A stretch of 22,521 nucleotides of DNA, from positions 1 to 22,521 of IMG/VR virus record IMGVR_UViG_3300020450_000102. The stretch is one strand, 5' to 3'. Below, one piece after another: positions 5,501 to 18,601 of the stretch; position 1 is the stretch's first letter; each line of letters opens with the position of its first letter. The notes beneath the pieces are model-generated. The model saw only the letters and a program-made list of their open reading frames with translations. It was not told the origin of the DNA and searched no databases. This stretch comes from a virus. A program made the position numbers and the translations under genes.

Positions 5501-5649
5501 GGACTTTTTTTAAATAATTTTGTAATGTAATTAGAACGTTTCATGGCACGTTCAAACCATTCTGCTTCTGATTTGTCGAAGAACTCCTTCTCATTAGGAT
5601 TTTCTCCAGCACTGAAGGCTTTCTGATATTCAACAATGTATGTGGTCAT
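5497..5649 (-). CDS. 50-residue basic/acidic protein between gp43 and uvsX
   Basis: Short [21 protein letters not shown] and on to FKKSP, 50 residues, hydrophilic and probably helical, with the pattern [19 protein letters not shown]. Support comes from the junctions: its ATG overlaps the gp43 stop (ATGA at 5646-5649) and its stop overlaps the uvsX ATG (5497-5500), so it fills the gap exactly. No ribosome site of its own is seen. Function is unknown. A small helical protein placed between polymerase and recombinase could be a replication accessory factor, but its role may simply be to carry ribosomes into uvsX. Confidence 0.7.
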
Positions 5650-8132
5650 CCGAATAAAAATTCAAGGTTAGCAACTTTTTCTGGCTTCCATCCTATTGTA
5701 TCCATAATGACTTTAATTGGTTCAAGAAAACTCTTGCTAAATTGTAAGTCATAATCCACCTGTTTGTCAAGCCCAAATTCATGAGGAAAAGTGCTTAAGA
5801 AACTAATCACATTTTCTCCGATCTTGTTGGGTGTCTTTAAGTATACAAATTTAATCTTTTCGCCATCCTGTATTAAGGGATACTTATGTTTCAATTTGTT
5901 TTTCTTATTATGAAAATTGTAGAGTAATGCTCCTCTAACATGAATAGGTGTTCCCTTTGCGTAAAGGGTAGCAGGATGTGCCCATTTATTTAGATTATTA
6001 CAACCTCTTGGAAATGAGATATCTTCAATAGGTAATGATGTAAACTCTTCCCTAAAATCAGCAATAAATTTCTGTGCTGCGTCCTCATCTTTATTCATAA
6101 TAACTGTCAATGCGTCTCTAATTGCTGTACGACAAGCAGCAGGAGTAGAGGACTTAACTGCCTCCAAACCCATGATTTTAAGTTTAGGTTTCTCATATCG
6201 AACACCTTCACTATCCCACACATTAAGAATGTAACGTTTCTTAGCAGTCCATATACCTTTATTAGCAATGTTCTCTCGCTTCATGAACATTTTCTGTTCA
6301 TAAGCACCTACGTACTTGGCCAATTCTTCATAAGAACTCGTAATATACTTCTCAAGTTCCATCTCACAGATCTTATTAAGGAACGACACAATGCTCTTAT
6401 CAGTTTTCTCTCTGCCCTTGTATACAGTTTCGACCAAAGGACCAAGGTTGAGGTAGATACTATCAGTATCACTAGCAATAACATAATCTTCCTCCTCTGT
6501 TTTAAGTATCTTGTTTAGATACTTATTCATTTTGTTTTCAATCCAACGGATGCTAACCTGCCCACTAAGAGTAATCGCCTCAGCATTAGATAAGTTGTAG
6601 TATCTAAAGTACTGGTTTCCAATGGCACCATAAGCCGAATTGAGCTGTATTTTTCTAGCCATTTGGATGTTATTGAATTTACTAATATCTCTTTGTAGTT
6701 TGGCACTTGGCGAAACTTCATAGTCCCGCTTCGCTTGGAGCATTTTCTTTTTATAAATCGTTCGCTCATCATAAATCTTCTGCATAATTTCTGGTAAGAA
6801 CCCATACACATCCTTACGATACTGAGCACCGTTAGCACATGTTGCGAATTCAGGATCAATCTCTACCTCTTGATTTAAGATCCTCTCAACGCTCGCACTG
6901 GGATGTCTAGTCTCCCAGAGGGTCTCTGGGGAAATATTGTACTGCATAATAAGATGAGGATACAGACTATTGAGGTCAAAACTGACAACCCAATCATACT
7001 TTCCTGGAATCGGTTCTTTGACATAAGCACCTGCGTATTTTTCATCTTTTTTAGATCCCTTTCGGGGTGGAACAACAATGTTCTTTTCACGTAGGTAATT
7101 ATAAATGATGGTATCCCACATGCGAACCTGTGAGTACACATCCTCAAAGTTTACCTTCGCATCATAAGACATAGTAATTGCTAGTTCTAGCAACTTCATC
7201 TTATCTTCAAGACGGTCAATTAGTTCAACGTCTTGGATGTTATATTCCATGAACTTCTGCCAATCAGAGGTATAGAAGTCCTTGAAGTTTTCGTATTCAG
7301 AGTGATCAACTTTTCGCTGACCAAGTTCGACGAAAGCGATGTGGTCAAGTCGGTAAGACTCTTGATTTGAATATGTAAACTTACGATATAGATCAAGGTA
7401 ATCAAGGATATTGACACCAGAGATATCATAAGCATAATTTTTACGTCCTTGGACATAGACTTCTCTCTCATTAGCACGGTTCCATGGTGACAAACTCTTC
7501 ATCCATTTCTCACCAAGAACTCTGTTTACACGTCTAGCAATGTATGGTACGTCATATAGATTCACGTTCCAACCAGTTAAGATGTCAGGGGTATTCTCAA
7601 CCCACCAACCAAGAAAATGATTTAACATTTCCTTCTCATTCCAAAAGATATGAGTCTCTACACCTTCTGGTGCTTCAAATTCACGAGTTGCCCAACAGTA
7701 ATACTGCTTTGTCACCATGTCTTTAATGGTGATTGACAACATTTCTTCTGCTGCTTCTTCTACATTAGGGAATCCATTCTCGCATTGAACCTCAATGTCC
7801 ATTGCATAGATCTTCATCTGATTGATACTATAATCAACCTCATCAGGAAACTCTTGGGTAATAAACTGATATACAAATCGCTCATACCCATGAACTTTAA
7901 ACCCTTCAACATTCTGATACTGTTGAATAAACTCCCTTGCTTCTCGTGAAGATTCAAATTTAACTGGGCGAACATTCTCACCCTCTAGAGTTTTATACTT
8001 CTCCTCCTTGTTTGAAGTTACAAATAAGGTAGGACTAAAATGGGCACGAGATTGGACTCTTTGCCCATCCTCGTACCCACGATAGAGAATTGTATTACCT
8101 GCAAGTTGAACGTTGGTGTAGAACCTACTCAT
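5646..8132 (-). CDS. 43: DNA polymerase, family B, gp43
   Basis: The replicative polymerase with 3'-5' proofreading, 828 residues (T4 gp43 is 898). Motifs in order: Exo I YAMDIEV, Exo II around WNVNLYDVPYIARR, Exo III YNIQDVELIDRL, Pol A SFDLNSLYPHLIMQYN, Pol B KIQLNSAYGAIGNQYFRYYN, Pol C ASDTDSIYLN, and KKRYILNVWD. A longer frame runs to 8171, but starting at 8132 (MSRFYTNVQLAG) places the exonuclease residues at D112 and E114, the same numbers as in T4, and gives the usual N terminus. The start overlaps the upstream Sm-like gene by 8 bases. An AAGGAG lies 13 bases upstream, farther than ideal. All catalytic residues seem intact, so it should be active. Confidence 0.97.
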   Translation of the reverse strand: MSRFYTNVQLAGNTILYRGYEDGQRVQSRAHFSPTLFVTSNKEEKYKTLEGENVRPVKFESSREAREFIQQYQNVEGFKVHGYERFVYQFITQEFPDEVDYSINQMKIYAMDIEVQCENGFPNVEEAAEEMLSITIKDMVTKQYYCWATREFEAPEGVETHIFWNEKEMLNHFLGWWVENTPDILTGWNVNLYDVPYIARRVNRVLGEKWMKSLSPWNRANEREVYVQGRKNYAYDISGVNILDYLDLYRKFTYSNQESYRLDHIAFVELGQRKVDHSEYENFKDFYTSDWQKFMEYNIQDVELIDRLEDKMKLLELAITMSYDAKVNFEDVYSQVRMWDTIIYNYLREKNIVVPPRKGSKKDEKYAGAYVKEPIPGKYDWVVSFDLNSLYPHLIMQYNISPETLWETRHPSASVERILNQEVEIDPEFATCANGAQYRKDVYGFLPEIMQKIYDERTIYKKKMLQAKRDYEVSPSAKLQRDISKFNNIQMARKIQLNSAYGAIGNQYFRYYNLSNAEAITLSGQVSIRWIENKMNKYLNKILKTEEEDYVIASDTDSIYLNLGPLVETVYKGREKTDKSIVSFLNKICEMELEKYITSSYEELAKYVGAYEQKMFMKRENIANKGIWTAKKRYILNVWDSEGVRYEKPKLKIMGLEAVKSSTPAACRTAIRDALTVIMNKDEDAAQKFIADFREEFTSLPIEDISFPRGCNNLNKWAHPATLYAKGTPIHVRGALLYNFHNKKNKLKHKYPLIQDGEKIKFVYLKTPNKIGENVISFLSTFPHEFGLDKQVDYDLQFSKSFLEPIKVIMDTIGWKPEKVANLEFLFG

Positions 8133-8373
8133 TCTGTGCGTTGTACTCCTTGGTAATTTCTTCTGATGCATCCACTATAGTCAAAACTGACTCAGATGTC
8201 AAGAACAAATCACGTTGTGAAGCAAACGAAGGAAAGGGTGACAATACTCCTTCAGGAGAAATGCTAAAACATTTTTCAACTAAGATTGCAGGTTCTTCAT
8301 CCAACTCAGTCACTTGACCGATTAGATACTCACTCCTGTTTGTCATCAACAGGATCTTCAGATTCGATGCCAT
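8125..8373 (-). CDS. Sm-like (LSm-type) small protein, copy 1 (82 aa)
   Basis: Small beta-rich protein starting MASNLKILLMTNRSEYLIGQ. It resembles two other proteins in this window (119 aa at 8330-8689, 98 aa at 18305-18601): each has a charged turn after the first strand (TNRSEYLIGQ, RNGEDVICDI, TGEEIIAEVV), a central P-aromatic (here LSPFPSF), then a hydrophobic strand leading into a helix with EYN or KYN/QYN. This pattern suggests the Sm fold, and a crystal structure of an Sm-like protein of putative cyanophage origin exists as I recall. The frame extends to a TTG at 8385, but GGAG at 8380-8383 fits ATG 8373. It overlaps both neighbours and precedes gp43. RNA binding is inferred, not shown. 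Confidence 0.7.
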   Translation of the reverse strand: MASNLKILLMTNRSEYLIGQVTELDEEPAILVEKCFSISPEGVLSPFPSFASQRDLFLTSESVLTIVDASEEITKEYNAQNE

Positions 8374-8689
8374 TTGTTGCTCCAACTAATTGATTGTATT
8401 TTTCGACTACATCATCATGTGTTTCATATGCACTGATAATTTCATCATAACGAACGATAATTTTTTGATCCTTTGCAAGAGGTACATAAGGTTCCATCGT
8501 AATTTCAGGATTACTAAGTTTATGAATGTTACCTTCATCATCGTCAGCAGTTATTCCTTCAGAAATCCAAACACTATATGGTTGAATTAACTGATACCCA
8601 AGGATCTTTTTATCTCCTTCTTGACTAATTTCACGGATGTCACAAATGACATCTTCACCGTTTCTTGTTCTTACGACCCTTACGCTCAT
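8330..8689 (-). CDS. Sm-like (LSm-type) small protein, copy 2 (119 aa)
   Basis: The longest of three mutually similar proteins. The N-terminal RVVRTRNGEDVICDIREI looks like an Sm1 strand pair, the middle has MEPYVPLAKDQK, and the strand QKIIVRYDEIISAYE leads to the helix VVEKYNQLVGATNGI, closely matching VVEQYNKIFGTTSDI in the 98-aa copy at 18305. An acidic, disordered-looking tail (ESEDPVDDKQE) is unique to this copy. The frame is open to 8785, but GGAGGG at 8693-8698 places the start at 8689 (MSVRVV). It overlaps the preceding 76-aa gene by 35 bases and the 82-aa copy by 44. A role in RNA binding or translation control is plausible by fold only. Confidence 0.72.
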   Translation of the reverse strand: MSVRVVRTRNGEDVICDIREISQEGDKKILGYQLIQPYSVWISEGITADDDEGNIHKLSNPEITMEPYVPLAKDQKIIVRYDEIISAYETHDDVVEKYNQLVGATNGIESEDPVDDKQE

Positions 8690-8885
8690 AGTCCCTCCGT
8701 TCGATTTCGTGTACTGCTTCCTTGATAATATCCTTAAGGATTCTATCTTCGGGTATATTTTTTTGTTCTGCGATGGGTCTAACATGCCGCAGAAGTTCTT
8801 CAGTATAACCTGAAGGTACCTCTAATGTCAAGAGGTCTGACTCACCACCATAGGTGTTTGGTTTTAAATTCAAATAGACATTCAT
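8655..8885 (-). CDS. Small conserved protein of unknown function, 76 aa
   Basis: Begins MNVYLNLKPNTYGG, continues with LLTLEVPSGYTEELLRHV, and ends in a very basic tail (DYERKGRKNKKR) that could bind nucleic acid. I do not recognise a domain. The frame also contains a TTG at 8897 and an ATG at 8888; the ATG at 8885 is preferred because GGAGG at 8891-8895 lies five bases before it, while the others are too close to or upstream of that site. It is the first gene after the hairpin at 8903-8923 and leads into the Sm-like pair and gp43, so it may head that transcription unit. Confidence 0.7.
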   Translation of the reverse strand: MNVYLNLKPNTYGGESDLLTLEVPSGYTEELLRHVRPIAEQKNIPEDRILKDIIKEAVHEIERRDYERKGRKNKKR

Positions 8886-8902
8886 CATATCCTCCAAATA
8901 AA

Positions 8903-8923
8903 AAGAGACCCATCGGGTCTCTT
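8903..8923 (-). terminator. Rho-independent terminator-like hairpin
   Basis: A perfect 9-base inverted repeat, AAGAGACCC / GGGTCTCTT, with a three-base loop. On the minus strand it is followed directly by TTTATTT, giving a U-run with the stem's own final Ts. It follows the stop of the oxygenase gene at 8949 and ends about eight bases before the GGAGG of the next gene. It fits a terminator of the pstS-oxygenase transcript, but because it nearly touches a ribosome site it could also be a 5' leader hairpin or attenuator. Confidence 0.7.
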
Positions 8924-8932
8924 CTGTTGTAT

Positions 8933-8938
8933 AGTATA
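8933..8938 (-). promoter_or_regulatory. Possible -10 element (TATACT) before the hairpin
   Basis: The minus strand reads AACTATATACTATACAAC between the oxygenase stop and the hairpin. TATACT resembles a sigma70 -10 box. No recognisable -35 is seen about 17 bases upstream. If used, the transcript would start almost at the base of the hairpin, making the hairpin a 5' leader structure. Confidence 0.3.
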
Positions 8939-8948
8939 TAGTTATTTT

Positions 8949-9575
8949 TTAATTCGTGTGTCTATCGTTGTTGATAGTTGTTGTTCCAGGAGCAAATAAC
9001 GTATGTTTAACGTAATCTACATAACCTCTAATATTATATGATATGATAGTCCTTCTTATATCAGTTTTAGTAACAGGTGCTTCATGTAGTAGAGATGAAG
9101 GGAAGAGTATCATATCTCCTTCTTTTACATTTGGTTGGAAGACCTCTACGTCACAATCCCAAGGTTGTCTAAATGGTGAGAAGAACCTAGTAGACTCATG
9201 TACCTTTGGATCAAACTCAACATAGATAATTGACGACCATCCAGTAAATCCATGACAGTGTGTCTTATGCACCACATTGTTATAGTATTTTTGATACCAC
9301 ATTTCAACAAACTCTACTGGATTACCATCCATAAAGCTTTTCAGGTATGGTTTAATTACATCTACTACTGTATGGAAATAACTAGGAAACTCTTTAACCT
9401 GTGCATTGATAAAAAAGTCAGTATACAATCCACTACCACTTGGTTCCAATTGAGAATCATCCTCTGGTGGTAGAGCAGCAAGTATTTTCTTTTTATTTTC
9501 AGACCAATTCTCTATAGGATAATATACTATAGGAACAGTGAACATAGGATTTACATATCCCAATTCTTTATCCAT
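8949..9575 (-). CDS. 2OG-Fe(II) oxygenase, PF13759-like
   Basis: A 208-residue predicted dioxygenase of the family with a histidine-rich first ligand pair. Visible residues: HKTHCHGFTGWSSIIYVEF with H106-x-H108 as likely metal ligands, then EGDMILFPSSLLHEAPV with H164, then DIRRTIISYNIRG with R174/R175 for 2-oxoglutarate. The W-Y-Q-K-Y-Y-N stretch before the first ligand and the GDMILFPSxLxH segment are typical of this family, which is common in marine phages. No signal peptide, so cytoplasmic. It follows pstS by about 30 bases. It is clearly different in sequence from the two other oxygenases in this window. Substrate unknown. Confidence 0.85.
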   Translation of the reverse strand: MDKELGYVNPMFTVPIVYYPIENWSENKKKILAALPPEDDSQLEPSGSGLYTDFFINAQVKEFPSYFHTVVDVIKPYLKSFMDGNPVEFVEMWYQKYYNNVVHKTHCHGFTGWSSIIYVEFDPKVHESTRFFSPFRQPWDCDVEVFQPNVKEGDMILFPSSLLHEAPVTKTDIRRTIISYNIRGYVDYVKHTLFAPGTTTINNDRHTN

Positions 9576-9605
9576 AATTTAAACTCAGGTTTCTTTATAT
9601 TAGCA

Positions 9606-10568
9606 CTATTTACCAATACGGTCAACAGCATCCCTTGACTTCTGTAGTATGTCACCTCTCAGTGGTACATAACCTAGCACAGATGCCTTCTCTTGATACT
9701 CTGTAGAGAGTAACGTTCTAAAGGTATCCTTCACTGCTTCAGTCTTACTACCATTACCAGTTTCATAAGCAAGTATCCATGTAAGCGTAGCAATGGGGTA
9801 AGCACCTTCTGCTGCAGGGTTAGGGTCTGTCCCTGCGAGGTTTTCATCGAGTGTAATACCATTGAGTGCCAAAGCACCCGACTCAACTGATGGTGTAATA
9901 AACTCACCATTCTTATTCTCAAGGGCAGCAGCAACAACTTCACCCTTAATGTAGGACTGATTAACATAACCAATAGCACCAATTTGATTTCTAATGTTGC
10001 CAGCAACACCAGCATTACCTTTGTTACCTATGCCCACAGGCCAAGCAACTGATTTCGCAACTCCAAGTTTCCACTTCTTACTAAACTCATTCATCGATCT
10101 AGTAAATGCAGCAGTAGTACCTGAACCATCAGAACGGTACACCCATGTCATCGCATGGTCATCACATCCTACCTGTGACCAGTTGTTGATCTCACCAATA
10201 GCAACCTGTACTGCTTGCTCTTGTGTAAGTTTAAGATCACAACCAGGCATATTATAACCGAAAGCAATAGTGCCTCCAGTCATAGGTATCTGTACTAGAC
10301 CTCGTTTTGATTTAGCAATGTCTGCATCCTTCATAGGATCATCGGATGCTCCGAAGTCCACTGTTTCATCAAGGAATGCTTTTCTACCTGAACCACTACC
10401 AACTGCTTGGTAGTTTACTCTGTTACCTCCTGACTTTGCGTAGTCAGAGAACCATCTTTGATATACCTTAGATGGAAAAGAAGCACCTGCTCCACTAAGT
10501 CTAGTCCGTGCCTCGGCACAACCAGGTATTAGGGTAGCAAGTGCTGCTAATGCGATAAGCCTTTTCAT
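9606..10568 (-). CDS. pstS: Phosphate ABC transporter periplasmic binding protein PstS
   Basis: A 320-residue phosphate-binding protein, a well-known cyanophage auxiliary gene thought to help the infected cell take up phosphate. The N terminus MKRLIALAALATLIPGCAEA is a signal peptide; IPGC could serve as a lipobox, or cleavage could follow AEA. Phosphate-site motifs are present: GAGASFPSKVY, GSGSGRKAF, DFGASDDPM and RSDGSGTTAAF. The length matches the family and no damage is seen. GGA five bases before ATG 10568 is the ribosome site. The upstream region carries two 8-base Pho-box-like repeats and a TATATA element, so it may be induced by the host PhoB-type regulator under phosphate starvation, as reported for cyanophage pstS. 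Confidence 0.96.
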   Translation of the reverse strand: MKRLIALAALATLIPGCAEARTRLSGAGASFPSKVYQRWFSDYAKSGGNRVNYQAVGSGSGRKAFLDETVDFGASDDPMKDADIAKSKRGLVQIPMTGGTIAFGYNMPGCDLKLTQEQAVQVAIGEINNWSQVGCDDHAMTWVYRSDGSGTTAAFTRSMNEFSKKWKLGVAKSVAWPVGIGNKGNAGVAGNIRNQIGAIGYVNQSYIKGEVVAAALENKNGEFITPSVESGALALNGITLDENLAGTDPNPAAEGAYPIATLTWILAYETGNGSKTEAVKDTFRTLLSTEYQEKASVLGYVPLRGDILQKSRDAVDRIGK

Positions 10569-10603
10569 TAGGATCCGCTTAAGGACTCTTGTATATAGAG
10601 CAG

Positions 10604-10622
10604 TTTAATCTAATCTTAATCT
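10604..10622. promoter_or_regulatory. Pho-box-like tandem repeat upstream of pstS
   Basis: The plus strand reads TTTAATCT, a 3-base spacer, then CTTAATCT. Both match the cyanobacterial Pho-box unit PyTTAAPyPy(T/A), and the 11-base period matches the known arrangement (three units separated by 3 bases). A possible third unit (GTCAAGTA, 10626-10633) matches only 5 of 8. The repeats overlap the stop codon of hsp20 and lie just upstream of a TATATA sequence near 10593-10598 on the pstS strand. The consensus reads on the strand opposite to pstS, which is a reason for caution. Confidence 0.5.
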
Positions 10623-11056
10623 GCTGTCAAGTAATCCTTACGTGTATGATGTTCTGGTACTATTTTTCCCAGTTCCACGGACAAGAGTCCGTCGGCAAAA
10701 ACGACCTGTCGAACTTCGCAATCTTCGCTGAGTGTCCAAGAGCGTTTGAATGAACGTTGTGCCAAGCCCCTGTGTTGATATGTTGCATCTGTTTCCTTAT
10801 CTTCTTTGATGCCTTCAACATGTAATTTTCCAAACTCCGTGAAGACTTTGACCTCTTCTTTCTTGAAGCCTGCAAGTGCGACTTCCAATCTCGATTCATG
10901 ATTACTCAAATGCACCAAATTATATGGTGGATAATTAGTTTGGGATTCCGTCTCCCAGAACCTATTTAGATAATCATCTATTCCAATGCCGTTACGAGTA
11001 ATCTTCTCCATGAGTTCAGGAAGATTTGCAGCATGGTATCTTGCTAGTGTGTTCAT
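10616..11056 (-). CDS. hsp20: Small heat shock protein (Hsp20 family)
   Basis: A 146-residue alpha-crystallin-type chaperone that would hold unfolded proteins during infection. After an N-terminal arm (residues 1-45, NRFWETESQ) the crystallin domain starts at YPPYNLVHLSNHESRLEVALAGFKKEEV, continues with FGKLHVEGIKE and RGLAQRSFKRSWTLSEDCEV, and ends with ADGLLSVELGK. This follows the IbpA layout. AAGGAG lies four bases before ATG 11056, a strong site. It is typical of cyanomyoviruses. The leader contains a late-promoter-like TTAAATA and a small GTGTC/GACAC hairpin. The coding region is noticeably more G+C-rich than most of the window (about half in 10681-10740 by count). Confidence 0.95.
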   Translation of the reverse strand: MNTLARYHAANLPELMEKITRNGIGIDDYLNRFWETESQTNYPPYNLVHLSNHESRLEVALAGFKKEEVKVFTEFGKLHVEGIKEDKETDATYQHRGLAQRSFKRSWTLSEDCEVRQVVFADGLLSVELGKIVPEHHTRKDYLTAD

Positions 11057-11084
11057 AGTTCTCCTTTAAAAGCGAGTGTAAATT

Positions 11085-11103
11085 GTGTCCCTTACGGCGA
11101 CAC
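11085..11103 (-). promoter_or_regulatory. Small hairpin in the hsp20 leader
   Basis: GTGTC and GACAC flank a 9-base centre (CCTTACGGC), giving a 5-base stem. It lies between the late-promoter-like motif and the hsp20 start. It may shape the 5' end of the mRNA, but the stem is short and could be chance. Confidence 0.3.
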
Positions 11104-11105
11104 TA

Positions 11106-11130
11106 TTATTTAACCATAACCTTTAAATAA
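11106..11130. promoter_or_regulatory. Palindromic pair of divergent late-promoter-like motifs
   Basis: TTATTTAA at 11106-11113 and its exact reverse complement TTAAATAA at 11123-11130, separated by 9 bases. Each half contains TAAATA, the core of T4-type late promoters, and the halves point outward: one to hsp20 on the minus strand, one to the plus-strand cassette. The region 11057-11195 holds no gene, and both neighbours need a promoter here because they are divergent. A second A+T-rich element, TTATAAAC near 11166-11173, is another candidate for the plus strand. Confidence 0.5.
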
Positions 11131-11195
11131 ATGGAAGTGTTCTCTACCGCACAATTTATGGGGGTTATAAACACCTATATAGTTCACAGATAACA

Positions 11196-11708
11196 ATGTC
11201 AAATGGCATGAAAAAATTTATTCCTTTTATTATGCTTGCAACCTTTGGTGCTTTGATAACCCCAGTGAGGGCAGACATTACATCTAGATTTGCTTCTAGT
11301 GTGCAACTAAGTGTTGGTGGGGCTCACACAACAGCTGAGAGGATAGGATCCTCGTATGCTATCAGTGGCTCAAATATTGATACCACAGATGGCACGACGG
11401 TTAACACAGTCAGTACGGGTGCTATAGCATCAGGTGTTTATTCGCCTGGAACTATTGCAGCAACACAGGACACACCAGGTGCAGCATTCAGCTTTAGCCA
11501 GTCATATACTCAAGCTGATGCGATTCCAGGTAGTGCTGTAACAGTTGGTGCATCACAAAACTTTGGTGATATATCAAGTACTTCTGCTGGAACTACTGGT
11601 GACCTTGCTGGTCAAGTTACTAGTGCTCATACTTTTGCTAGTGTAGCAGCAGGTGGAGCTAATACTTCAGCTACGACTCAGTTCGTAACAGAATTGACCA
11701 TTAAGTAG
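11196..11708 (+). CDS. Secreted Ser/Thr/Gly-rich protein A of the plus-strand cassette
   Basis: A 170-residue protein with a clear signal peptide: MKKFIPFIMLATFGALITP then VRA and cleavage before D. The mature part is small-residue-rich (Ser, Thr, Ala, Gly), without cysteines, and looks beta-rich. The motif TPGAAFSFSQSYTQAD is shared with the next gene (TPGAAFQFTQSYQGPG), so the two are probably paralogs. The ATG at 11196 is used here, but the in-frame ATG at 11208 (MKK) would give a more standard signal peptide; neither has a clear ribosome site. I recall similar proteins in other cyanomyoviruses but no function. Periplasmic export, or a role at the cell or virion surface, is inferred from the signal peptide only. 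Confidence 0.8.
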   Translation: MSNGMKKFIPFIMLATFGALITPVRADITSRFASSVQLSVGGAHTTAERIGSSYAISGSNIDTTDGTTVNTVSTGAIASGVYSPGTIAATQDTPGAAFSFSQSYTQADAIPGSAVTVGASQNFGDISSTSAGTTGDLAGQVTSAHTFASVAAGGANTSATTQFVTELTIK

Positions 11709-11718
11709 GTGATAAAGG

Positions 11719-12183
11719 ATGAATAAATTTATCCTATTATTCTTATTATTAATTCCGTCTAGAACTCTTGCTGTGCCAGTGGTCCCCAACTTCCAGCAAG
11801 GTTCGATGACGAGCCATACCGAGACTGAATCTACAGTCACGGAAACCATAAATTCAGTTGATTATCGTACAGGATGGGAATATTCAGTGACAGGTGTAGG
11901 GATCTCCAACGATGGAGCGGCTTTGAATCCCAACGTCAACACCTCAACAGTGACAATAGAGCCAAGCGTCGGCACCAATGGAGACATGGTGACAGGAAGC
12001 GTAGTATCTTCTCACGATGCATTGGACTTCTCCAGTCAAAGCAATTACACAATGACAACTCCAGGTGCGGCGTTTCAATTCACCCAGAGTTATCAAGGCC
12101 CAGGCATGACCAATCAAACTCTCATACAGAGAGTCACCACAATCGAATCCGTCACAGACACAACAAGCGTGTTTACGCAGTAA
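11719..12183 (+). CDS. Secreted protein B of the plus-strand cassette
   Basis: A 154-residue protein with signal peptide MNKFILLFLLLIPSRTLA and probable cleavage at TLA before VPVVP. The mature part is rich in Thr, Ser and Val, probably beta structure, and carries TPGAAFQFTQSYQGPG near the C-terminal third, matching protein A. It begins 10 bases after gene A. Base use differs from most of the window: 11881-11940 is about 50% and 11941-12000 about 53% G+C by count, with many C-ending codons, unlike genes such as mazG. A second frame (frame of gene C) stays open across most of it. This could mean recent acquisition from a G+C-richer relative. Function unknown. Confidence 0.8.
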   Translation: MNKFILLFLLLIPSRTLAVPVVPNFQQGSMTSHTETESTVTETINSVDYRTGWEYSVTGVGISNDGAALNPNVNTSTVTIEPSVGTNGDMVTGSVVSSHDALDFSSQSNYTMTTPGAAFQFTQSYQGPGMTNQTLIQRVTTIESVTDTTSVFTQ

Positions 12184-13199
12184 TAGCAACGGTTCTCGGT
12201 TTTAATTCTTTACCTATAGGAGCACTAGCTCAAGGTGTAGGTGGTGTTAGTGCTACTGCTAATCCTATAGCCAATAGTTCGGGCTCGGTCACGAACCAGG
12301 CAATACAAGTTTTACAAGGTCCATACGTAACTAACACCTACGGTGGTGGTGTGTCATGTCAAGGTACGACTATGAATATGACACCATACATTCAGTTCGC
12401 TGATAGTAGGAAAGATCCATGGGAAGATTTTTATAACGAACCACAATATAATACTAGTGATACTACAGGTAAGATGGTTCCTACCTATGTTAATGTCAAG
12501 AATTATCCTTGGGAAGAGTGGTATGACGATAGAACATATACAGATGAAAATGGTGATGAAGTAAGATGGTTCCCAGATGGATCAGATATTACAATCATTC
12601 AAGATGTAGACAGTCCTAATGGTGTACCAGATGTAGTTGATACTGGTGGGGAAATGACCCCATCATGGTTTAAACCTGTGCGTACTGACATGAGAGCAAA
12701 CCAATCCTTTAACGTAGGTCTCTCTGCTACGCTTTCAATACCACTCAACAGGGGTATGCAACGTAGATGTAAGGAGGCAGCAGAAGCACAGATAGCATCC
12801 GTTCAACAGTTGACTGCTAATAAAAGATTAGACTTCGAAATCGCTCGTCTCAAAAATTGTGGTGAGCTCATGAAGGCTGGTATTATGTTCCATCCCAAAT
12901 CACCTTATGCTTCTATATGTTCTGACGTAGTTGTAACAGCACCAGGTGGACAGATCATTCCACACGAACACCAGATACCACAACCTAGTTGGACTAACCC
13001 TTCTTCTTCAAAGGAGGTAGACCTTTCTTCTCTCGGTACTTCTCAGTCATCCTCTCAGTCAAGTTTGGACGGCGTTCCTCTTTCTTCCCAAGTAATTTTT
13101 GAACCTTCGTCATCACCTTCTTCACAACAGGCTTCACAGCCTTCAGGATCAGATCTGCTAGGGGTTTGGCAAATAGGGCGGATGCAGTCGCAACCGTAG
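12147..13199 (+). CDS. Secreted protein C of the plus-strand cassette, no canonical start codon
   Basis: About 350 residues. A signal peptide is evident (RHRHNKR, then VYAVIATVLGFNSLPIG, ALA, cleavage before QGVGG), but no ATG, GTG or TTG precedes it until ATG 11874, deep inside gene B. The coordinate given is an ATC codon just before the basic region; ATA at 12183, overlapping the gene B stop as TAATA, is the alternative. The mature part contains SVTNQAIQVLQGPYVTNTYGG, acidic WEDFY/WEEWY repeats, and a helical segment with CKEAAEAQIASVQQL and RLDFEIARLKNCGELM. I recall this protein in many cyanomyoviruses without known function. The last 68 residues, Ser-rich, are read antisense to the opposing gene. 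Confidence 0.7.
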   Translation: MRHRHNKRVYAVIATVLGFNSLPIGALAQGVGGVSATANPIANSSGSVTNQAIQVLQGPYVTNTYGGGVSCQGTTMNMTPYIQFADSRKDPWEDFYNEPQYNTSDTTGKMVPTYVNVKNYPWEEWYDDRTYTDENGDEVRWFPDGSDITIIQDVDSPNGVPDVVDTGGEMTPSWFKPVRTDMRANQSFNVGLSATLSIPLNRGMQRRCKEAAEAQIASVQQLTANKRLDFEIARLKNCGELMKAGIMFHPKSPYASICSDVVVTAPGGQIIPHEHQIPQPSWTNPSSSKEVDLSSLGTSQSSSQSSLDGVPLSSQVIFEPSSSPSSQQASQPSGSDLLGVWQIGRMQSQP

Positions 13200-13896
13200 C
13201 AATCGTTGCTGTAGTTGTTACAACACCTACTGATGGTAGAAACTGTTCCACTGCTGGTACTGGTTCCCAGATGGTCTCACAGATTTTACCGTCAGGTGTT
13301 AGTTTATATTCTTTTACTTGCTCATCACCCTTCTGATTCCTATCACCTATACGTCTTGCATTGAGTGGAGGACATTCTACTGGGCCATCTGGTGTTGGTG
13401 TGTCTGGTGTTCCTGGTGCTGATGGTGTATCTAAAGGTTGAGGATCATCTGTATCAACACCTTCATCACCTTCTTCTGGTTCTGTATTAATTGTCTGCCA
13501 AAATAATTCTCTATAATCATAGTCAGGTGGTTGGTAGTAGGGCATACCAGCATCACATAGTGTGGTCTGTCCTTTAGGATCATCGTTAACTAGATTCTTA
13601 TTAGTAGATGGATCCTTCTTAGCATTCTCTTTGTGTACTGTTACACAACCAGGCATATTAACAATAGGTGTACCAGCAGTAACGGTGACTGGAACATCTA
13701 TTGGTATTGCACTGGGTGGATTAATCAACCAATTACGTGTATCTCGAATATTAACATTCCTTATATCTGCAACATAGGTATTACGAACACCTATAGTATA
13801 ATTACCAATCAAAGGTATTCCTGTTCCGTTGACTGTTATGTCAGGTATATTAAGTCCACGGAGAGTAATATTAGGTACATTATGAATAGGATCCAT
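12994..13896 (-). CDS. Conserved cyanophage protein with hydrophobic C-terminal region, 300 aa
   Basis: Begins MDPIHNVPNITLRGLNIPDITVNG, with NMPGCVTVHKENA and DAGMPYYQPPDYDYRELFWQT in the first half. A Pro/Thr/Asp-rich linker near residues 135-175 (PQPLDTPSAPGTPDTPTPDGP) follows, then VEQFLPSVGVVTTTATIATVATASALFAKPLADLILKAVKPVVKKV, a hydrophobic then amphipathic stretch, and a strongly basic tail. I recall near relatives in many cyanomyoviruses with this tail, so the C-terminal frame here is the conserved one. A membrane or virion association is likely from sequence but unproven. It overlaps the 3' end of the plus-strand gene C by 206 bases tail to tail, with no terminator between. Confidence 0.83.
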   Translation of the reverse strand: MDPIHNVPNITLRGLNIPDITVNGTGIPLIGNYTIGVRNTYVADIRNVNIRDTRNWLINPPSAIPIDVPVTVTAGTPIVNMPGCVTVHKENAKKDPSTNKNLVNDDPKGQTTLCDAGMPYYQPPDYDYRELFWQTINTEPEEGDEGVDTDDPQPLDTPSAPGTPDTPTPDGPVECPPLNARRIGDRNQKGDEQVKEYKLTPDGKICETIWEPVPAVEQFLPSVGVVTTTATIATVATASALFAKPLADLILKAVKPVVKKVMTKVQKLLGKKEERRPNLTERMTEKYREKKGLPPLKKKG

Positions 13897-13910
13897 AGGT
13901 AAGTATCCAT

Positions 13911-14168
13911 TTATTTTGGAGGTAACTCCTTCTTATAATCTTTAGGGTCTTTCAATCCTTTAACAGGACCACTAGTTTTTGGCCAAGCATTAACTAATTG
14001 TAGATATACTTCTTCTCTTACTACTTGACGTATCTCTTCTATACGTGCGTCTTGTCTTTTCTGAGGACCACCAGTTTGTTGGTCGACGACATGATTGCCA
14101 CCGACAAACGCACCAGTACCTACTACTGCTACTGCTGTTCCAGTTGATGCTATCTTTTGGATATCCAT
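13911..14168 (-). CDS. Small membrane-anchored protein of unknown function, 85 aa
   Basis: MDIQKIASTGTAVAVVGTGAFVGGNHVV forms one Gly/Ala/Val-rich hydrophobic segment at the N terminus, followed by a charged helix (RIEEIRQVVREEVYLQLV) and a Lys/Pro-rich end. A single membrane helix or signal anchor is likely. The ATG at 14168 overlaps the upstream stop as TAATG, with AAGGA seven bases before it. It belongs to the run of five genes from 15494 to 12994. I do not recognise a domain. Confidence 0.75.
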   Translation of the reverse strand: MDIQKIASTGTAVAVVGTGAFVGGNHVVDQQTGGPQKRQDARIEEIRQVVREEVYLQLVNAWPKTSGPVKGLKDPKDYKKELPPK

Positions 14169-14776
14169 TAGCAGTCCTTCATCATCTCTGCCATATCTCC
14201 ACCAAGTTCAGCACCTTGATCACCACCAAACATTGTTACCCAACCAGCAGCAAGCCAACCAACAAAAGGAATACCACTAACGGCAGGAGCAGCAGCAGCA
14301 CCAACGCCACTACCAACGAGACGACCAGTCTGTTCTCCACCACCTCTTGCTTTGAGGCAAGCGATTGTTTTTGCTGAGAGATCTCCGTTTGGATTTGCAG
14401 CTGCTTGGATTGCAAGTGCTGCTGGATCAATCCATGCTGTCTTGGTTGATACTGGTCCTCCATGGTGTGCTGCACCATCGGCAGTAAATTCGATAACTTC
14501 TTTAGTAGTATTATTAGCGAGTCCCAGAAACCCACCTTTTGCTTTCCTATCAATAGTAGTGACCATAGTCTTAGGATCGTTAGCTCTATAACTCACACTA
14601 TAACCATCTTCACTAACATGTGCTTCATAGGAAGTGTATTCTCCTACTGGCATATTCAAACTAGGAAGTTTAGATGAATCTCTCCTAGCAAGCATACCAA
14701 TCATACCTATATGAGATATGCCTATAACTCCACCCAATCCAAGGGCAAACCATTTTGTTAAATTAATTTTATCCAT
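14168..14776 (-). CDS. Conserved cyanophage membrane protein, 202 aa
   Basis: N-terminal hydrophobic helix (KWFALGLGGVIGISHIGMIGML, about residues 8-30), then a soluble part with KLPSLNMPVGEYTSYEA, SVSYRANDPK and GGFLGLANN, and a Gly/Ala-rich hydrophobic C-terminal segment (GRLVGSGVGAAAAPAVSGIPF, VGWLAAGWVTMFGG), ending in a cysteine. At least one and perhaps two or three membrane spans. I recall the same protein beside the same neighbours in other cyanomyoviruses, function unknown. The ribosome site GAGG lies six bases before ATG 14776. The glycine-zipper-like C-terminal part could insert in membranes, which would suit a role in DNA entry or lysis, but this is inference. Confidence 0.8.
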   Translation of the reverse strand: MDKINLTKWFALGLGGVIGISHIGMIGMLARRDSSKLPSLNMPVGEYTSYEAHVSEDGYSVSYRANDPKTMVTTIDRKAKGGFLGLANNTTKEVIEFTADGAAHHGGPVSTKTAWIDPAALAIQAAANPNGDLSAKTIACLKARGGGEQTGRLVGSGVGAAAAPAVSGIPFVGWLAAGWVTMFGGDQGAELGGDMAEMMKDC

Positions 14777-14791
14777 AACGATCCTCGTAAT

Positions 14792-15055
14792 TTAAAAAGC
14801 GTTTCCTGGAACAGGAAGTCCCATGCTGCCACCACCTATAGAAGCTTGAGGTGTAGGTGGTACAAGATCAGGAGTTCCTATAGGAAGATCTCCACCAAGA
14901 CTACCACCTAGACCGCCACCAAGACTACCAAGTGCTTTCTCTGTAACACTCTCTATGATGGCATCCTTTTGTACATAAAGATAAACGCCACCGCCAACAA
15001 CGGCAAGAGATACAACGCTAGACGCAATAGCAAGTACATTTACAATTTTCTGCAT
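14792..15055 (-). CDS. Small membrane protein with Gly-rich tail, 87 aa
   Basis: Starts MQKIVNVLAIASSVVSLAVVGGGVYLYV, a single hydrophobic span, followed by a short polar stretch (QKDAIIESVTEKALG) and a repetitive SLGGGLGGSLGGDLP segment, then a Pro/Gly tail ending GNAF. The frame is open upstream to 15106, but the start at 15055 avoids overlapping the 144-aa gene and has a GAG ten bases before it. It resembles a conserved cyanophage membrane protein I recall without a function. It is part of the five-gene run. Confidence 0.77.
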   Translation of the reverse strand: MQKIVNVLAIASSVVSLAVVGGGVYLYVQKDAIIESVTEKALGSLGGGLGGSLGGDLPIGTPDLVPPTPQASIGGGSMGLPVPGNAF

Positions 15056-15059
15056 GATT

Positions 15060-15494
15060 TTAAATCTCGTAAGTTTTCTTTTCTTTGCTGTTAGGATCAA
15101 CCGCAATGATTTTTAGTGGTGCTTGTTCAATACGAATAGTCTGAGTAGGACCACCGTTACCACCTCCATTTCCACCACCGTTGCCATTCATCTTCATAGT
15201 ACCGTCACCCTTTTTAGATGCAGTCTGAATTCCGAAGCTAGCTAAAACCCCAGTAAAAACCGAAGCTATAAAAGTTGGATCGATTTTCTGCTGTGGTACA
15301 CCTGGGATGGCGACGTAATTTAAAGTCAAAATTCCGCCCGACCAGGCAAGAACGGTAATGCGAACAAATGTACTAATGATAGCAGCTTGCTCGTCAGCAT
15401 CGGGAAGTATAGCATCCTTAGCTTTGCCAAAGAAACCTTTCTTTTTTTCTTCAGGTTGTTCTTCGACAACCTCTTCTTTAATCTCTTCGGCCAT
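15060..15494 (-). CDS. Conserved cyanophage protein with two hydrophobic segments, 144 aa
   Basis: Acidic then basic N terminus (EEVVEEQPEEKKKGFFGKAK), followed by STFVRITVLAWSGGILTLNYVAI and a second hydrophobic stretch DPTFIASVFTGVLASFGIQTA, then a Gly/Asn repeat (NGNGGGNGGGNGGPT) and a beta-like C terminus. I recall a close relative in many cyanomyoviruses. Size and two hydrophobic segments are compatible with a holin, but there is no lysozyme gene next to it, so that remains a guess. It is the first gene of the five-gene run and follows regA by 28 bases. No ribosome site is visible before ATG 15494, and a TATAAT lies about 20 bases upstream. Confidence 0.8.
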   Translation of the reverse strand: MAEEIKEEVVEEQPEEKKKGFFGKAKDAILPDADEQAAIISTFVRITVLAWSGGILTLNYVAIPGVPQQKIDPTFIASVFTGVLASFGIQTASKKGDGTMKMNGNGGGNGGGNGGPTQTIRIEQAPLKIIAVDPNSKEKKTYEI

Positions 15495-15513
15495 GAAAAG
15501 TATTTGTAACTAT

Positions 15514-15519
15514 ATTATA
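15514..15519 (-). promoter_or_regulatory. TATAAT element upstream of the five-gene membrane-protein run
   Basis: The minus strand reads GATATATAATATAG in the short gap between regA and the 144-aa gene. TATAAT is a perfect -10 hexamer, but no -35 is recognisable and the sequence could also be a degenerate late promoter. Position, just before a new functional group, makes a promoter plausible. Confidence 0.4.
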
Positions 15520-15522
15520 TAT

Positions 15523-15951
15523 CTATTCAGAAGGTTGCCTTTTCTTACCGATATTATATTTGGACTCAAGAGTCCATTCACCCTTTTCTTTGTATGCAAT
15601 AACTTTAATTTGACTTAGGGGTGCTGCCTGTGTAACAGCATCCTCCTTTACAATCTCTACTAAACCCCAATCAGATAAAAGTTTGATGATACGATTTCGA
15701 CGTTGAACATCATTCTCAGATAGGTTTGCTTTCTTACCATCCAGTGCAAAGAGTTCCTTAAAATGCACTATGTAATACTGTCCCTTCTTATGAAGAATGT
15801 GGCATGATTGAAATAGTTTCTTTTCTTTTCTAGAAGCAACTCCAATACGTGTAAGAGTCTCACGAACTTTAAGGAAATCATCTGGTTCCTTTAAGTTCAC
15901 CTCCACCATATCATTCTTTGTCCATTGAACTTCTTTAGGTTGTTCGCTCAT
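15523..15951 (-). CDS. regA: RegA translational repressor of early genes
   Basis: A 142-residue homologue of T4 RegA (122 aa), which binds the start regions of early phage mRNAs, including replication genes, and blocks ribosome binding. The conserved stretch EPDDFLKVRETLTRIGVA, then KLFQSCHILHKKGQYYIVHFKELF, and LLSDWGLVEIV are close to T4 by memory. The protein has about 10 extra residues at the N terminus and a basic tail KKRQPSE. GAGG lies nine bases before the ATG in GAGGTTATAAATTATG. In T4, regA lies between gene 62 and gene 43. Here it also follows gp62 but gp43 is several kilobases away. Confidence 0.95.
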   Translation of the reverse strand: MSEQPKEVQWTKNDMVEVNLKEPDDFLKVRETLTRIGVASRKEKKLFQSCHILHKKGQYYIVHFKELFALDGKKANLSENDVQRRNRIIKLLSDWGLVEIVKEDAVTQAAPLSQIKVIAYKEKGEWTLESKYNIGKKRQPSE

Positions 15952-15991
15952 AATTTATAACCTCATGTATTCAGTTTTTATTGTGATGTAG

Positions 15992-16144
15992 TTAAGTTGG
16001 TTCCGCAATACTTTTTGTCATATAGCTAAGTTGTTCTGGAGTTAACGTCTTTAAAGCAGCAACTGCTTCCTTTAAATCATCATCAGAAATACCTTCTGGA
16101 GCAGTCTGCTTAATATATGCCTCTATCTTTGCATCACTTGTCAT
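15992..16144 (-). CDS. 50-residue protein resembling the gp62 C-terminal tail
   Basis: Short ORF MTSDAKIEAYIKQTAPEG, then ISDDDLKEAVAALKTLTPEQLSYMTKSIAEPT. The second half matches the end of gp62 just upstream (SSDKAIQALRILTPNQLNYIKEKL): both show A-x-x-A-L-x-x-L-T-P-x-Q-L-x-Y. An AGAGGA nine or so bases before ATG 16144 is a good ribosome site, and the gene sits neatly in the gp62-regA gap, so I believe it is translated. Function unknown. It might be a duplicated module that binds the same partner as the gp62 tail. Confidence 0.72.
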   Translation of the reverse strand: MTSDAKIEAYIKQTAPEGISDDDLKEAVAALKTLTPEQLSYMTKSIAEPT

Positions 16145-16156
16145 CGGTTGGTCCTC

Positions 16157-16561
16157 TCATGGTTTCTTACCTCCTTTATTTAGTTTTTCTTTAATGTAAT
16201 TTAATTGGTTTGGAGTTAAGATCCTTAAGGCTTGAATTGCTTTATCACTACTATAACCATAGTATTTTTTCACAAGGTCAAGATCTTTCACCGTTTGCTT
16301 TTTACCCCAAGGAGAAAATCTCTTTCGGGATCTGACGGTATTTATAAAGAAATCGTACTGAAGTTTCTTATCTAAGTTAGGATATTGATTCATCTCATTT
16401 GCATACATCACAGTATCGATGTGATGTGACATACATTTATTAATTACAAAAGGAGTATAATTCTTTTCCCAAGCAGGATCTTCATCCTCCATGAGGTTCT
16501 TCTTTGTTAAATTAATAGTGTTCAAATAATCCTTAAGAGGATAACGATCATCATATGCCAT
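16157..16561 (-). CDS. 62: Clamp loader small subunit gp62
   Basis: A 134-residue relative of T4 gp62 (187 aa), the subunit that joins four gp44 ATPases to form the clamp loader that places gp45 on DNA. The recognisable core is PFVINKCMSHHIDTVMYANEMNQYPNLDKKLQYDFFINTVR followed by RFSPWGK and KKYYGYSSDKAIQALRIL. Short length is usual in cyanophages. GGAGG lies six bases before ATG 16561, and the start overlaps the upstream oxygenase gene by 11 bases. Unlike T4, where 45-44-62 are adjacent, here six other genes lie between gp44 and gp62. Confidence 0.9.
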   Translation of the reverse strand: MAYDDRYPLKDYLNTINLTKKNLMEDEDPAWEKNYTPFVINKCMSHHIDTVMYANEMNQYPNLDKKLQYDFFINTVRSRKRFSPWGKKQTVKDLDLVKKYYGYSSDKAIQALRILTPNQLNYIKEKLNKGGKKP

Positions 16562-17135
16562 AGAGTTCCTCCATTAGTTTTTTCTCATTAACTTCCATAT
16601 CACTTCCCCATAATCTCTTTTCTTTATCAAAATAAACTTTGTTATGACATCCTCTAGTCCTTACATAATGCATAAAGAATTGAAGATACTCTTTTCCTCT
16701 ATAAGGATTAACCCTATAATGTGGAACTAGATGTCCCAGATACAAAACAGCGTCACCAGGATTTAATGAGAGTTGCTTATCATAACATCCAAATAACCAT
16801 TCTTCATCACCATCTAAATGAATTGTTAAAGATACTTCACATGCTGCACGATCTTCATGTTTAGGAAGAGTATCACCAGTCCTATAGATTCTAGACAAAC
16901 AATACGTTGGAACAAGGTACTCACCAACAATCTCATTTATGAGTGAATTTTTATCACACATAATTTCCAATCCAAATGTAGGATTGTAAATAGAAGATGC
17001 ATTAGGTGCAACCTCCTTCCAATCACTAGGTTTCATCCTAGTATGACGAAGTTCACGAACACATTCTGCTGCGTATTCAGGGGAGATGAAGTTTTCTATT
17101 AAGGCAAACTTTGCGTCTAAAAATTCTTGTTTCAT
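16551..17135 (-). CDS. 2OG-Fe(II) oxygenase, third type
   Basis: A 194-residue predicted dioxygenase. Metal ligands: LPKHEDRAACEVSLTIHLDG gives H93-x-D95, and LGHLVPHYRVNPYRGKEYLQFFMHYV gives H139, with R146 or K148 for 2-oxoglutarate. The segment SLNPGDAVLYLGHLVPHYR is a typical strand before the distal histidine. The C terminus adds about 30 residues. Cytoplasmic, with AGGA seven bases before ATG 17135. It overlaps gp62 downstream and the 119-aa gene upstream. It differs from the two oxygenases at 3883 and 8949, so the three are not recent duplicates. Substrate unknown. Confidence 0.85.
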   Translation of the reverse strand: MKQEFLDAKFALIENFISPEYAAECVRELRHTRMKPSDWKEVAPNASSIYNPTFGLEIMCDKNSLINEIVGEYLVPTYCLSRIYRTGDTLPKHEDRAACEVSLTIHLDGDEEWLFGCYDKQLSLNPGDAVLYLGHLVPHYRVNPYRGKEYLQFFMHYVRTRGCHNKVYFDKEKRLWGSDMEVNEKKLMEELYGI

Positions 17136-17491
17136 AACTTTTTCCTGACTGGTACCTCAATAGTCCATGATGGTGATTCTAATTTAACCATCTTAAACTG
17201 TTGTCTATTCTTCTCATAGGTAGCAGCAGGTTCATTACCAGCAGTCTCACCATAATGAGTTTCCTTTATATCCAAATATTCTAAGATAGCTTCATCTACC
17301 ATTTGAAATAGTGTATCCCATGTTAGAGTATCTCTCAACTTAGATGCAATTCTATCAATATCATTCCCATCAAGATACTCACCCTTGCATATCTTACTAG
17401 AGTAATCTCCATATTGAGTTTGGAGTTTTGCTCTGATCTCTACCAACTTGTTAAGGTTGATAGTGATCTTTACATCATCATCAATTTCCAT
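17132..17491 (-). CDS. Protein of unknown function, 119 aa
   Basis: Soluble acidic protein: MEIDDDVKITINLNKLVEIRAKLQTQYGDYSSKICKG, a helical region with DIDRIASKLRDTLTWDTLFQMVDEAILEYLDI, a linker, and a basic strand end SWTIEVPVRKKL. I do not recognise a domain. It overlaps dam upstream by 11 bases and the oxygenase downstream by 4, so it is in the same transcription unit. No clear ribosome site; coupling to dam translation is likely. Confidence 0.75.
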   Translation of the reverse strand: MEIDDDVKITINLNKLVEIRAKLQTQYGDYSSKICKGEYLDGNDIDRIASKLRDTLTWDTLFQMVDEAILEYLDIKETHYGETAGNEPAATYEKNRQQFKMVKLESPSWTIEVPVRKKL

Positions 17492-18308
17492 AATTAGTTA
17501 ATACAAGTTCTTTACGTTGTTGTTGGTTCTTCATATAATCACCAACGGATCTCATAGTATACGTATGATCATATTCAGATGTATTCCAGTTAATAAATCT
17601 ATCTTTAATTAACTGTGATGAATTATATGATATCATCTGATGATTAGTATTTCTATCACATTCTTGAGCAAAAAAGTCATGATCAAATCCTTTATGCATA
17701 GAACCTTTTTTACCATATAAAGAAGACTTTATTTCATAAGGAGGGTCAAGATAAGTAAAGACCTCTTTATTATCACAAGACATTCTCTCATAGGAGATAT
17801 TAGTTATAACCCAGTTCTCTATTAGTTTAGAATACTCTGGTAACTTTTCTATGCCTCGTAAACTGAAGTTGGAGTCTGAGGCTTGTTTGGAGAAGGAACT
17901 CGATTCGGTAAGACCACTGAAAGAACACTTATTAACAATATAAAAACTAACAGCACGAGTGGTGAGACTGGCTCTGGCATCGTTAACCAGTTCTTTACTC
18001 TCGATAAAAAGTTCTCTTGCTCTATCTGGGGTGGGGTATGCTCTTTTAAATGCTTTGAGCCTGGTCGTAATTTCATTTGATTCATCCTGTAGTTGTTGCC
18101 AAAAATTCACTAGAGGTTCATATAGATCATTGACCCACATGTCTAAGTGAGGATATGTCTGTGACATATAAAGAGCAACAGATCCACCTCCAAGAAAAGG
18201 TTCTCTATACTCTTTATACTTACTCATATCAGGTAAGAACTGTGCCATCTTTTTAACAGCACGAGACTTACCTCCTGGATAACGAAGAGGTGTTTTCAAA
18301 GAGGTCAT
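17481..18308 (-). CDS. dam: DNA adenine N6-methyltransferase, Dam/D12 class
   Basis: A 275-residue methyltransferase that transfers a methyl group from SAM to adenine. Motifs in the order of the D12 (alpha) class: PLRYPGGK at residues 7-14, EPFLGGGSV near 36-44 (SAM binding), and catalytic DPPY at 188-191, with ISYNSS near 225. The length matches T4 Dam (259). By analogy GATC is the likely target, but this is not visible in the sequence. GATC occurs many times in the window and is not obviously avoided. No restriction enzyme gene is adjacent, so it acts as a solitary enzyme, perhaps against host restriction. It overlaps the Sm-like gene by 4 bases (ATGA). Confidence 0.93.
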   Translation of the reverse strand: MTSLKTPLRYPGGKSRAVKKMAQFLPDMSKYKEYREPFLGGGSVALYMSQTYPHLDMWVNDLYEPLVNFWQQLQDESNEITTRLKAFKRAYPTPDRARELFIESKELVNDARASLTTRAVSFYIVNKCSFSGLTESSSFSKQASDSNFSLRGIEKLPEYSKLIENWVITNISYERMSCDNKEVFTYLDPPYEIKSSLYGKKGSMHKGFDHDFFAQECDRNTNHQMISYNSSQLIKDRFINWNTSEYDHTYTMRSVGDYMKNQQQRKELVLTNYGN

Positions 18309-18601
18309 AAAATTAGTTGCTTACCAGGAGTAATAATATCACTTGTTGTACCAAAGATTTTATTATACTGCTCAACTACCTGAGGTGCAACTGCAACAGA
18401 ATATATAACATGTTTCATATCCAAAGCAATCTCAGGAAATTCTGGATCAATAACAGTTGCCCATGGAGCAAATCCTACCTGATCCTGATGTGGAATTATA
18501 GTTAGAGCATTCTGAATAGTCAGAATACCGTTCTTCCAATCTACAACTTCAGCGATAATCTCTTCGCCAGTTATTAAGCGTATTAGTTTTAAATCAATCA
18601 T
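18305..18601 (-). CDS. Sm-like (LSm-type) small protein, copy 3 (98 aa)
   Basis: Starts MIDLKLIRLITGEEIIAEV, continues GILTIQNALTIIP, has the P-aromatic FAPWATVIDP, then ALDMKHVIYSVAVAPQVVEQYNKIFGTTSDII. The ends of copies 2 and 3 are very alike (VVEKYNQLVGATNGI and VVEQYNKIFGTTSDI), which I take as clear evidence of common origin. The LITGEEIIAEV opening is the same type as known phage Sm-like proteins. This copy lies about 10 kb from the other two, between dam and the 78-aa gene. AAGG lies about ten bases before ATG 18601. A role in RNA binding is a fold-based inference. Confidence 0.75.
   Translation of the reverse strand: MIDLKLIRLITGEEIIAEVVDWKNGILTIQNALTIIPHQDQVGFAPWATVIDPEFPEIALDMKHVIYSVAVAPQVVEQYNKIFGTTSDIITPGKQLIL

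Follow-up and report, generated by a model that had tools for sequence, protein, structure and literature searches.

The locus examined here raises the question of what several small, mutually similar proteins do among the replication genes of a marine phage. The window, i.e., the whole stretch of DNA analysed, is the 22,521-nt IMG/VR fragment IMGVR_UViG_3300020450_000102, which is very near Prochlorococcus phage P-SSM7 (Kyanoviridae). It encodes three of these proteins, designated A, B, and C (Table 1), which are 96, 92, and 100% identical to their P-SSM7 counterparts, respectively. The first-pass annotation gave their coordinates and lengths correctly, without the strand, which is minus for all three, and it also placed them correctly: B and then A are located immediately upstream of gp43, and C is beside dam. 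The order of transcription is cobS, gp45, gp44, pyrE, a small ORF, C, dam, ..., gp62, regA, ..., hsp20, pstS, ..., B, A, gp43, uvsX, and gp41; thus, C is placed between the small ORF that follows pyrE/gp44 and dam. B and A share 44 bp in overlapping frames, and A in turn runs into the gp43 ORF at its 3' end. We set the start of B at the conserved MSVR at 8689, not at the longer-ORF start at 8785. The P-SSM7 annotation of B carries approximately 32 extra N-terminal residues, and conservation favours the internal ATG (MSVR...).

Other genes in the window were also noted. A small basic protein matching phrog_730 (unknown function) is encoded just upstream of B at 8655-8897 (-), overlapping the longer ORF start of B. 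Three oxygenase-like proteins are encoded at 3883-4530, 8949-9575, and 16551-17135 (-). The first two carry the PHROG label 2OG-Fe(II) oxygenase, while the third is labelled ferrochelatase, as is an adjacent P-SSM7 gene; the overlapping PHROG labels suggest mislabelling.

Table 1. Sm-fold paralogs and neighbouring features, with positions in the window
Feature	Position	Strand	Evidence or remark
A, Sm-fold paralog 1, 82 aa	8125..8373	-	phrog_483 2.7e-30; PF20198 DUF6561 1e-9
B, Sm-fold paralog 2, 119 aa	8330..8689	-	phrog_431 5e-44
C, Sm-fold paralog 3, 98 aa	18305..18601	-	phrog_527 5e-37; PDB 3BY7 1.6e-7
Acidic loop L3 of A, residues 22-28 TELDEEP	8290..8310	-	Corresponds in position to the RNA-contact loop of Sm1
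Loop L5 of A, residues 58-62 LTSES	8188..8202	-	Corresponds in position to the Sm2 Arg-Gly
gp43 DNA polymerase ORF, directly downstream of A	5646..8171	-	P-SSM7 annotation
gp43 C-terminal peptide NLEFLFG, predicted T4-type clamp-binding end	5649..5669	-	Sequence
DNA adenine methylase gene dam, immediately downstream of C	17481..18308	-	P-SSM7 annotation
regA translational repressor, within the same gene cluster	15523..15951	-	P-SSM7 annotation

The three proteins are true paralogs. Profiles built from 45 A, 49 B, and 20 C non-redundant sequences were compared with hhalign and gave probabilities of 97.9% for A-B (E 6e-13, score 73), 98.2% for B-C (E 6e-14, score 79), and 85.6% for A-C (E 6e-6, score 35). 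Column-shuffled controls (40 per pair) scored 18.6 or less, with a maximum of about 17 for these three pairs, versus 35-79 observed, and reversed profiles remained below 2%; these controls rule out a chance resemblance. The mutual similarity of three diverged proteins claimed by the first-pass annotation is, therefore, significant at the profile level. B also cross-matched phrog_527 (8e-11) and phrog_483 (5e-6) among the PHROG profiles. All three PHROG families in Table 1 for A, B, and C carry the label 'unknown function'. A is a member of PF20198 (DUF6561; 38.7 bits against a cut-off of 27), a family without an assigned function that is here tied to the Sm fold; B scored 26.7 bits, just below the cut-off, and C did not match.

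The count of three copies was correct for the window; however, a fourth paralog, encoded just beyond this stretch in related genomes, had been missed. This protein, D (phrog_471), joined A, B, and C at profile-profile probabilities of 94-97%. It is encoded between uvsW and gp55 (121610-122053 in P-SSM7), in the same place in other cyanomyoviruses, and its annotation as 'methylamine utilization' is a mislabelling. D matched Pfam PF16243 (Sm_like) at 1.6e-43, a family that A, B, and C did not reach in the Pfam profile search, and it adds a conserved C-terminal tail of its own. In a tree of which the root was not fixed and in which the branch of pelagiphage HTVC008M was long, A (99/97), C (100/90), and D (99/92) each formed a single clade, and A fell within or beside B. 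This pattern indicates that the genes were duplicated before the group spread. We propose that duplications preceding the spread of Kyanoviridae gave rise to B and, in tandem with it, A, as well as to C beside dam and D on the uvsW/gp55 side.

The first-pass annotation assigned A, B, and C to the Sm fold and referred to a structure of putative cyanophage origin. That structure is 3BY7, an Sm/LSm-like protein from an uncultured marine organism with a putative cyanophage origin, and the assignment is borne out. The AlphaFold2 models of A (pLDDT 86.9) and B (pLDDT 85.5; low confidence in the acidic tail from residue 109) consist of barrel strands followed by a C-terminal helix (residues 71-81 in A and 92-106 in B). 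In VIA-align, 3BY7 was the best match of both models, with Z 13.3 and an rmsd of 1.3 over 77 residues for A and Z 13.5 and an rmsd of 1.2 over 81 residues for B, followed by a long list of Sm/LSm chains at Z 6-8. An OB-fold or another barrel is ruled out because 3BY7 and Sm/LSm chains filled the fold lists. The Sm1-like turn and the Sm2-like stretch align across the families, and the elements of the shared layout described in the first-pass annotation (a charged turn, a P-aromatic, and a strand and helix at the C terminus) occupy equivalent positions in the A and B models and in the family alignment.

C is linked to the fold by its sequence similarity to 3BY7, and profile similarity to 3BY7 was also found for B (3.8e-8), D (2e-7), and A (1.4e-3). 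C represents the nearest class: 3BY7 scored 51 bits with the C profile versus 34-42 with those of A, B, and D, and it was sister to C in the tree (support 96/69). A and B stand farther away, at 18-29% identity.

The set belongs to the core of one phage group. Single-sequence tblastn searches returned 302, 300, 336, and 318 phage records for A, B, C, and D, respectively, nearly all of which were, by name, cyanophages or phages of marine Synechococcus or Prochlorococcus. A, B, and D were present in all 10 complete cyanomyovirus genomes compared, and C was present in 4 (P-SSM7, syn9, S-SM1, and ACG-2014f; located elsewhere in S-SM1), such that A, B, and C co-occurred in 4/10. HTVC008M carries a single copy, which occupies the place of D and is flanked by a helicase gene and gp55, and no homolog of A, B, C, or D was found in T4. 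Positions in the replication/late-transcription cluster were fixed across the cyanomyoviruses compared. Among viral contigs, 81 of 82 B-bearing loci contained A (A homologues being collected from B loci), gp43 followed A in 74/81 homologous loci, and the B/A overlap was nearly always retained.

When 84,980 species genomes were scanned using the B alignment, only two relatives were recovered, and a host origin for the B family was rejected on this basis. One was a fragment in a Rhodopirellula MAG. The other was in the Nonlabens xiamenensis assembly, on the 188-kb contig NZ_RMVE01000006.1 (31752-42066), which carries regA, hsp20, B, A, gp43, and uvsX. Since cyanophage regA, gp43, and uvsX accompany A and B, we interpret this contig as phage DNA; it is probably a contaminating cyanomyovirus genome. 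Taken together, we regard the Sm fold, paralogy, and synteny of this set as established with near certainty.

Two annotation irregularities were encountered in these comparisons. The A gene of S-WAM1 (about 142507-142746) is unannotated, its place in GenBank being taken by a hypothetical ORF that runs in the opposite direction. The gp43 annotation of Synechococcus phage ACG-2014f is split in two, with small ORFs in between, which may reflect an intron, inserted genes, or a frameshift.

Concerning function, we favour a role as protein adaptors. All four families are strongly acidic, with median pIs of 4.41 (A), 4.42 (B), 4.64 (C), and 4.92 (D) and median charges per subunit of -9, -14, -6, and -7, respectively. 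A and B have the most negative charge per residue among the 25 window genes checked, in which RegA and gp62 are basic and several other proteins are also acidic. Column counts revealed that the Sm2 Arg-Gly of loop L5 is absent from all four families: the position is Thr-Ser in A, Asp-Met/Lys in C, and variable in B and D, often K/R followed by a residue other than Gly. Loop L5 of A contains neither Arg nor Gly (T59 in 72/78 and S60 in 76/78), and its loop L3 is a near-invariant ELDEEP (E23 in 73, D25 in 71, E26 in 72, E27 in 75, and P28 in all of 78). The strong negative charge and the missing RNA-binding signature suggest that these proteins do not work as RNA chaperones, but keep proteins of replication and transcription together. 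In our reading, A, B, C, and D belong to a single ancient family of ring proteins with the Sm fold, which is centred on cyanophages and has 3BY7 as the structural prototype. The paralogs would assemble into small acidic rings, either homo- or hetero-oligomers, which would bind proteins as adaptors within the machinery of phage replication and late transcription. A precedent comes from the hosts, in which cyanobacterial Hfq works together with a protein partner, PilB, and binds no RNA (PMC10989914). We give about an even chance to acidic Sm rings being adaptors of the replisome and late transcription and not RNA chaperones of the Hfq type. Ring formation by A and B, an adaptor function, the partners of A and B, and the tethering of D to the gp45 clamp are all points that we infer.

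The main rival is RNA binding, in which rings would act on phage or host mRNAs or sRNAs in the manner of Hfq/LSm, possibly alongside RegA. The first-pass annotation proposed a system of this type, and the features described above speak against it. Furthermore, searches of Pfam and NCBIfam (E up to 1) with A, B, and C returned neither an Hfq nor an LSM match, such that membership of those families by profile is rejected, and a common gene cluster does not show that the paralogs and RegA act together. However, an acidic pI leaves room for a local basic patch, and charge is no proof against RNA binding. The Sm fold of A and B itself, the frequent K/R at the Sm2 Arg position in B and D, and the near-invariant K6 and invariant R54 retained by A are consistent with RNA binding. 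The authors of the 3BY7 structure reportedly inferred nucleic-acid binding from it. In addition, the Hfq of the hosts shows no RNA binding, and hfq is missing in some Prochlorococcus (PMC10989914); therefore, a phage might bring its own. On balance, we regard RNA regulation as a real possibility, albeit a rather doubtful one.

Another explanation is an obligatory hetero-oligomeric ring of A, B, and D, resembling the eukaryotic Sm heteroheptamer that arose from a single LSm, with C as an optional homo-oligomer. The universal presence of A, B, and D versus the patchy occurrence of C, the overlapping B-A tandem, the ancient duplications, and the single HTVC008M copy at the D position are all in its favour, and a hetero-oligomeric ring is compatible with the tandem arrangement of A and B. 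However, D is encoded some 20 kb from A and B, and the solved relative, 3BY7, crystallized as a homo-oligomer of five identical chains and is reported to be a homopentamer. This proposal appears unlikely in its obligatory form; it is partly compatible with the adaptor reading as well as with RNA binding.

The most specific idea on adaptor function comes from the tail of D. D consists of an Sm domain, a linker (mean column identity 0.31), and a conserved tail (0.60). The tail motif [LFI][ED]x[LIFM][FY] was present in 54 of 57 non-redundant D sequences against a shuffle mean of 0.5. A clamp-like tail in the other paralogs was rejected because the motif was absent (0/49 B, 0/20 C, and 1/45 A). 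The gp43 ends compared here share the D pattern (NLEFLFG, SLEFLFG, and SLESFFT), as does the T4 gp43 end (SLDFLFG). The T4 gp43 C terminus binds the sliding clamp and is interchangeable with the C termini of gp55 and gp33 (PMC2988020). A T4-type hydrophobic/acidic clamp-binding end was absent from cyanophage gp55, including that of S-PM2, whereas gp55 of HTVC008M retains such an end (KLEYFMQ) and its D lacks the tail; judged from these sequences, the apparent exchange of the motif between gp55 and D amounts to little more than a single contrast between lineages, with cyanophages on one side and HTVC008M and its near relatives on the other. Moreover, a review of T4 late transcription notes that the sequence of the S-PM2 gp33 homolog gives no evident sign of clamp binding (PMC2988020). 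The D tail, the contrast in gp55 ends, and the S-PM2 gp33 homolog together make D a candidate late-transcription clamp tether, in which D would be tethered to gp45 through its C-terminal tail. A and B have no such tail, and this argument is not directly transferable to them. We consider it quite improbable, as a complete scheme, that Sm rings replaced the T4 gp33/gp55 tethers, with D linking the late RNA polymerase to gp45, A and B performing a related job at the polymerase, and replication thereby being coupled to late transcription.

To our knowledge, most cyanobacteria do not have Rho. Independent small protein-binding tasks unconnected with replication, such as host-takeover inhibition in the manner of the anti-Rho protein Rof, an Sm-like protein that inhibits another protein through direct binding (PMC11018626), would suit small acidic proteins, but appear improbable, since throughout the family the paralogs strictly keep their places among replication and late-transcription genes, which mobile takeover genes typically do not.

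Individual Sm-like cyanophage proteins were already known from 3BY7 and Pfam Sm_like. We found no description of a paralog set in the literature searched on Sm-like proteins and cyanophages, a search outside which the 3BY7 structure paper falls. New as far as searched are the ancient core set of paralogs within the replication cluster, in which DUF6561 and three unnamed PHROGs are united, and the resemblance of the D tail to a clamp-binding end. Of the four genes, three are found almost universally in one of the most common phage groups of the ocean, where they are located among replication genes and annotated as hypothetical or 'methylamine utilization'; recognition as an Sm-fold set provides these core genes with a testable function. 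It also bears on a question from the review on late transcription, namely, what connects late transcription with the sliding clamp in cyanophages, given that the S-PM2 gp33-like protein has no obvious clamp-binding end (PMC2988020).

The paralogs share the Sm barrel, the Sm1-like turn, and the Sm2-like hydrophobic pattern with the RNA-binding rings of Hfq and Sm/LSm proteins. In contrast to these, their helix is at the C terminus and not the N terminus, besides the differences in charge, signature, and profile matches described above. 3BY7, the sequence of which is contained in TIP60 cages, has the same fold, but is one solved protein, whereas three to four diverged paralogs occupy fixed places in each genome here, which parallels in viruses the duplication that Sm rings underwent in eukaryotes. 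In comparison with the late-transcription tethers gp33 and gp55 of T4, cyanophage D adjoins gp55 and bears a predicted clamp-binding tail similar to that of gp43; unlike either T4 protein, it carries this tail on an Sm fold.
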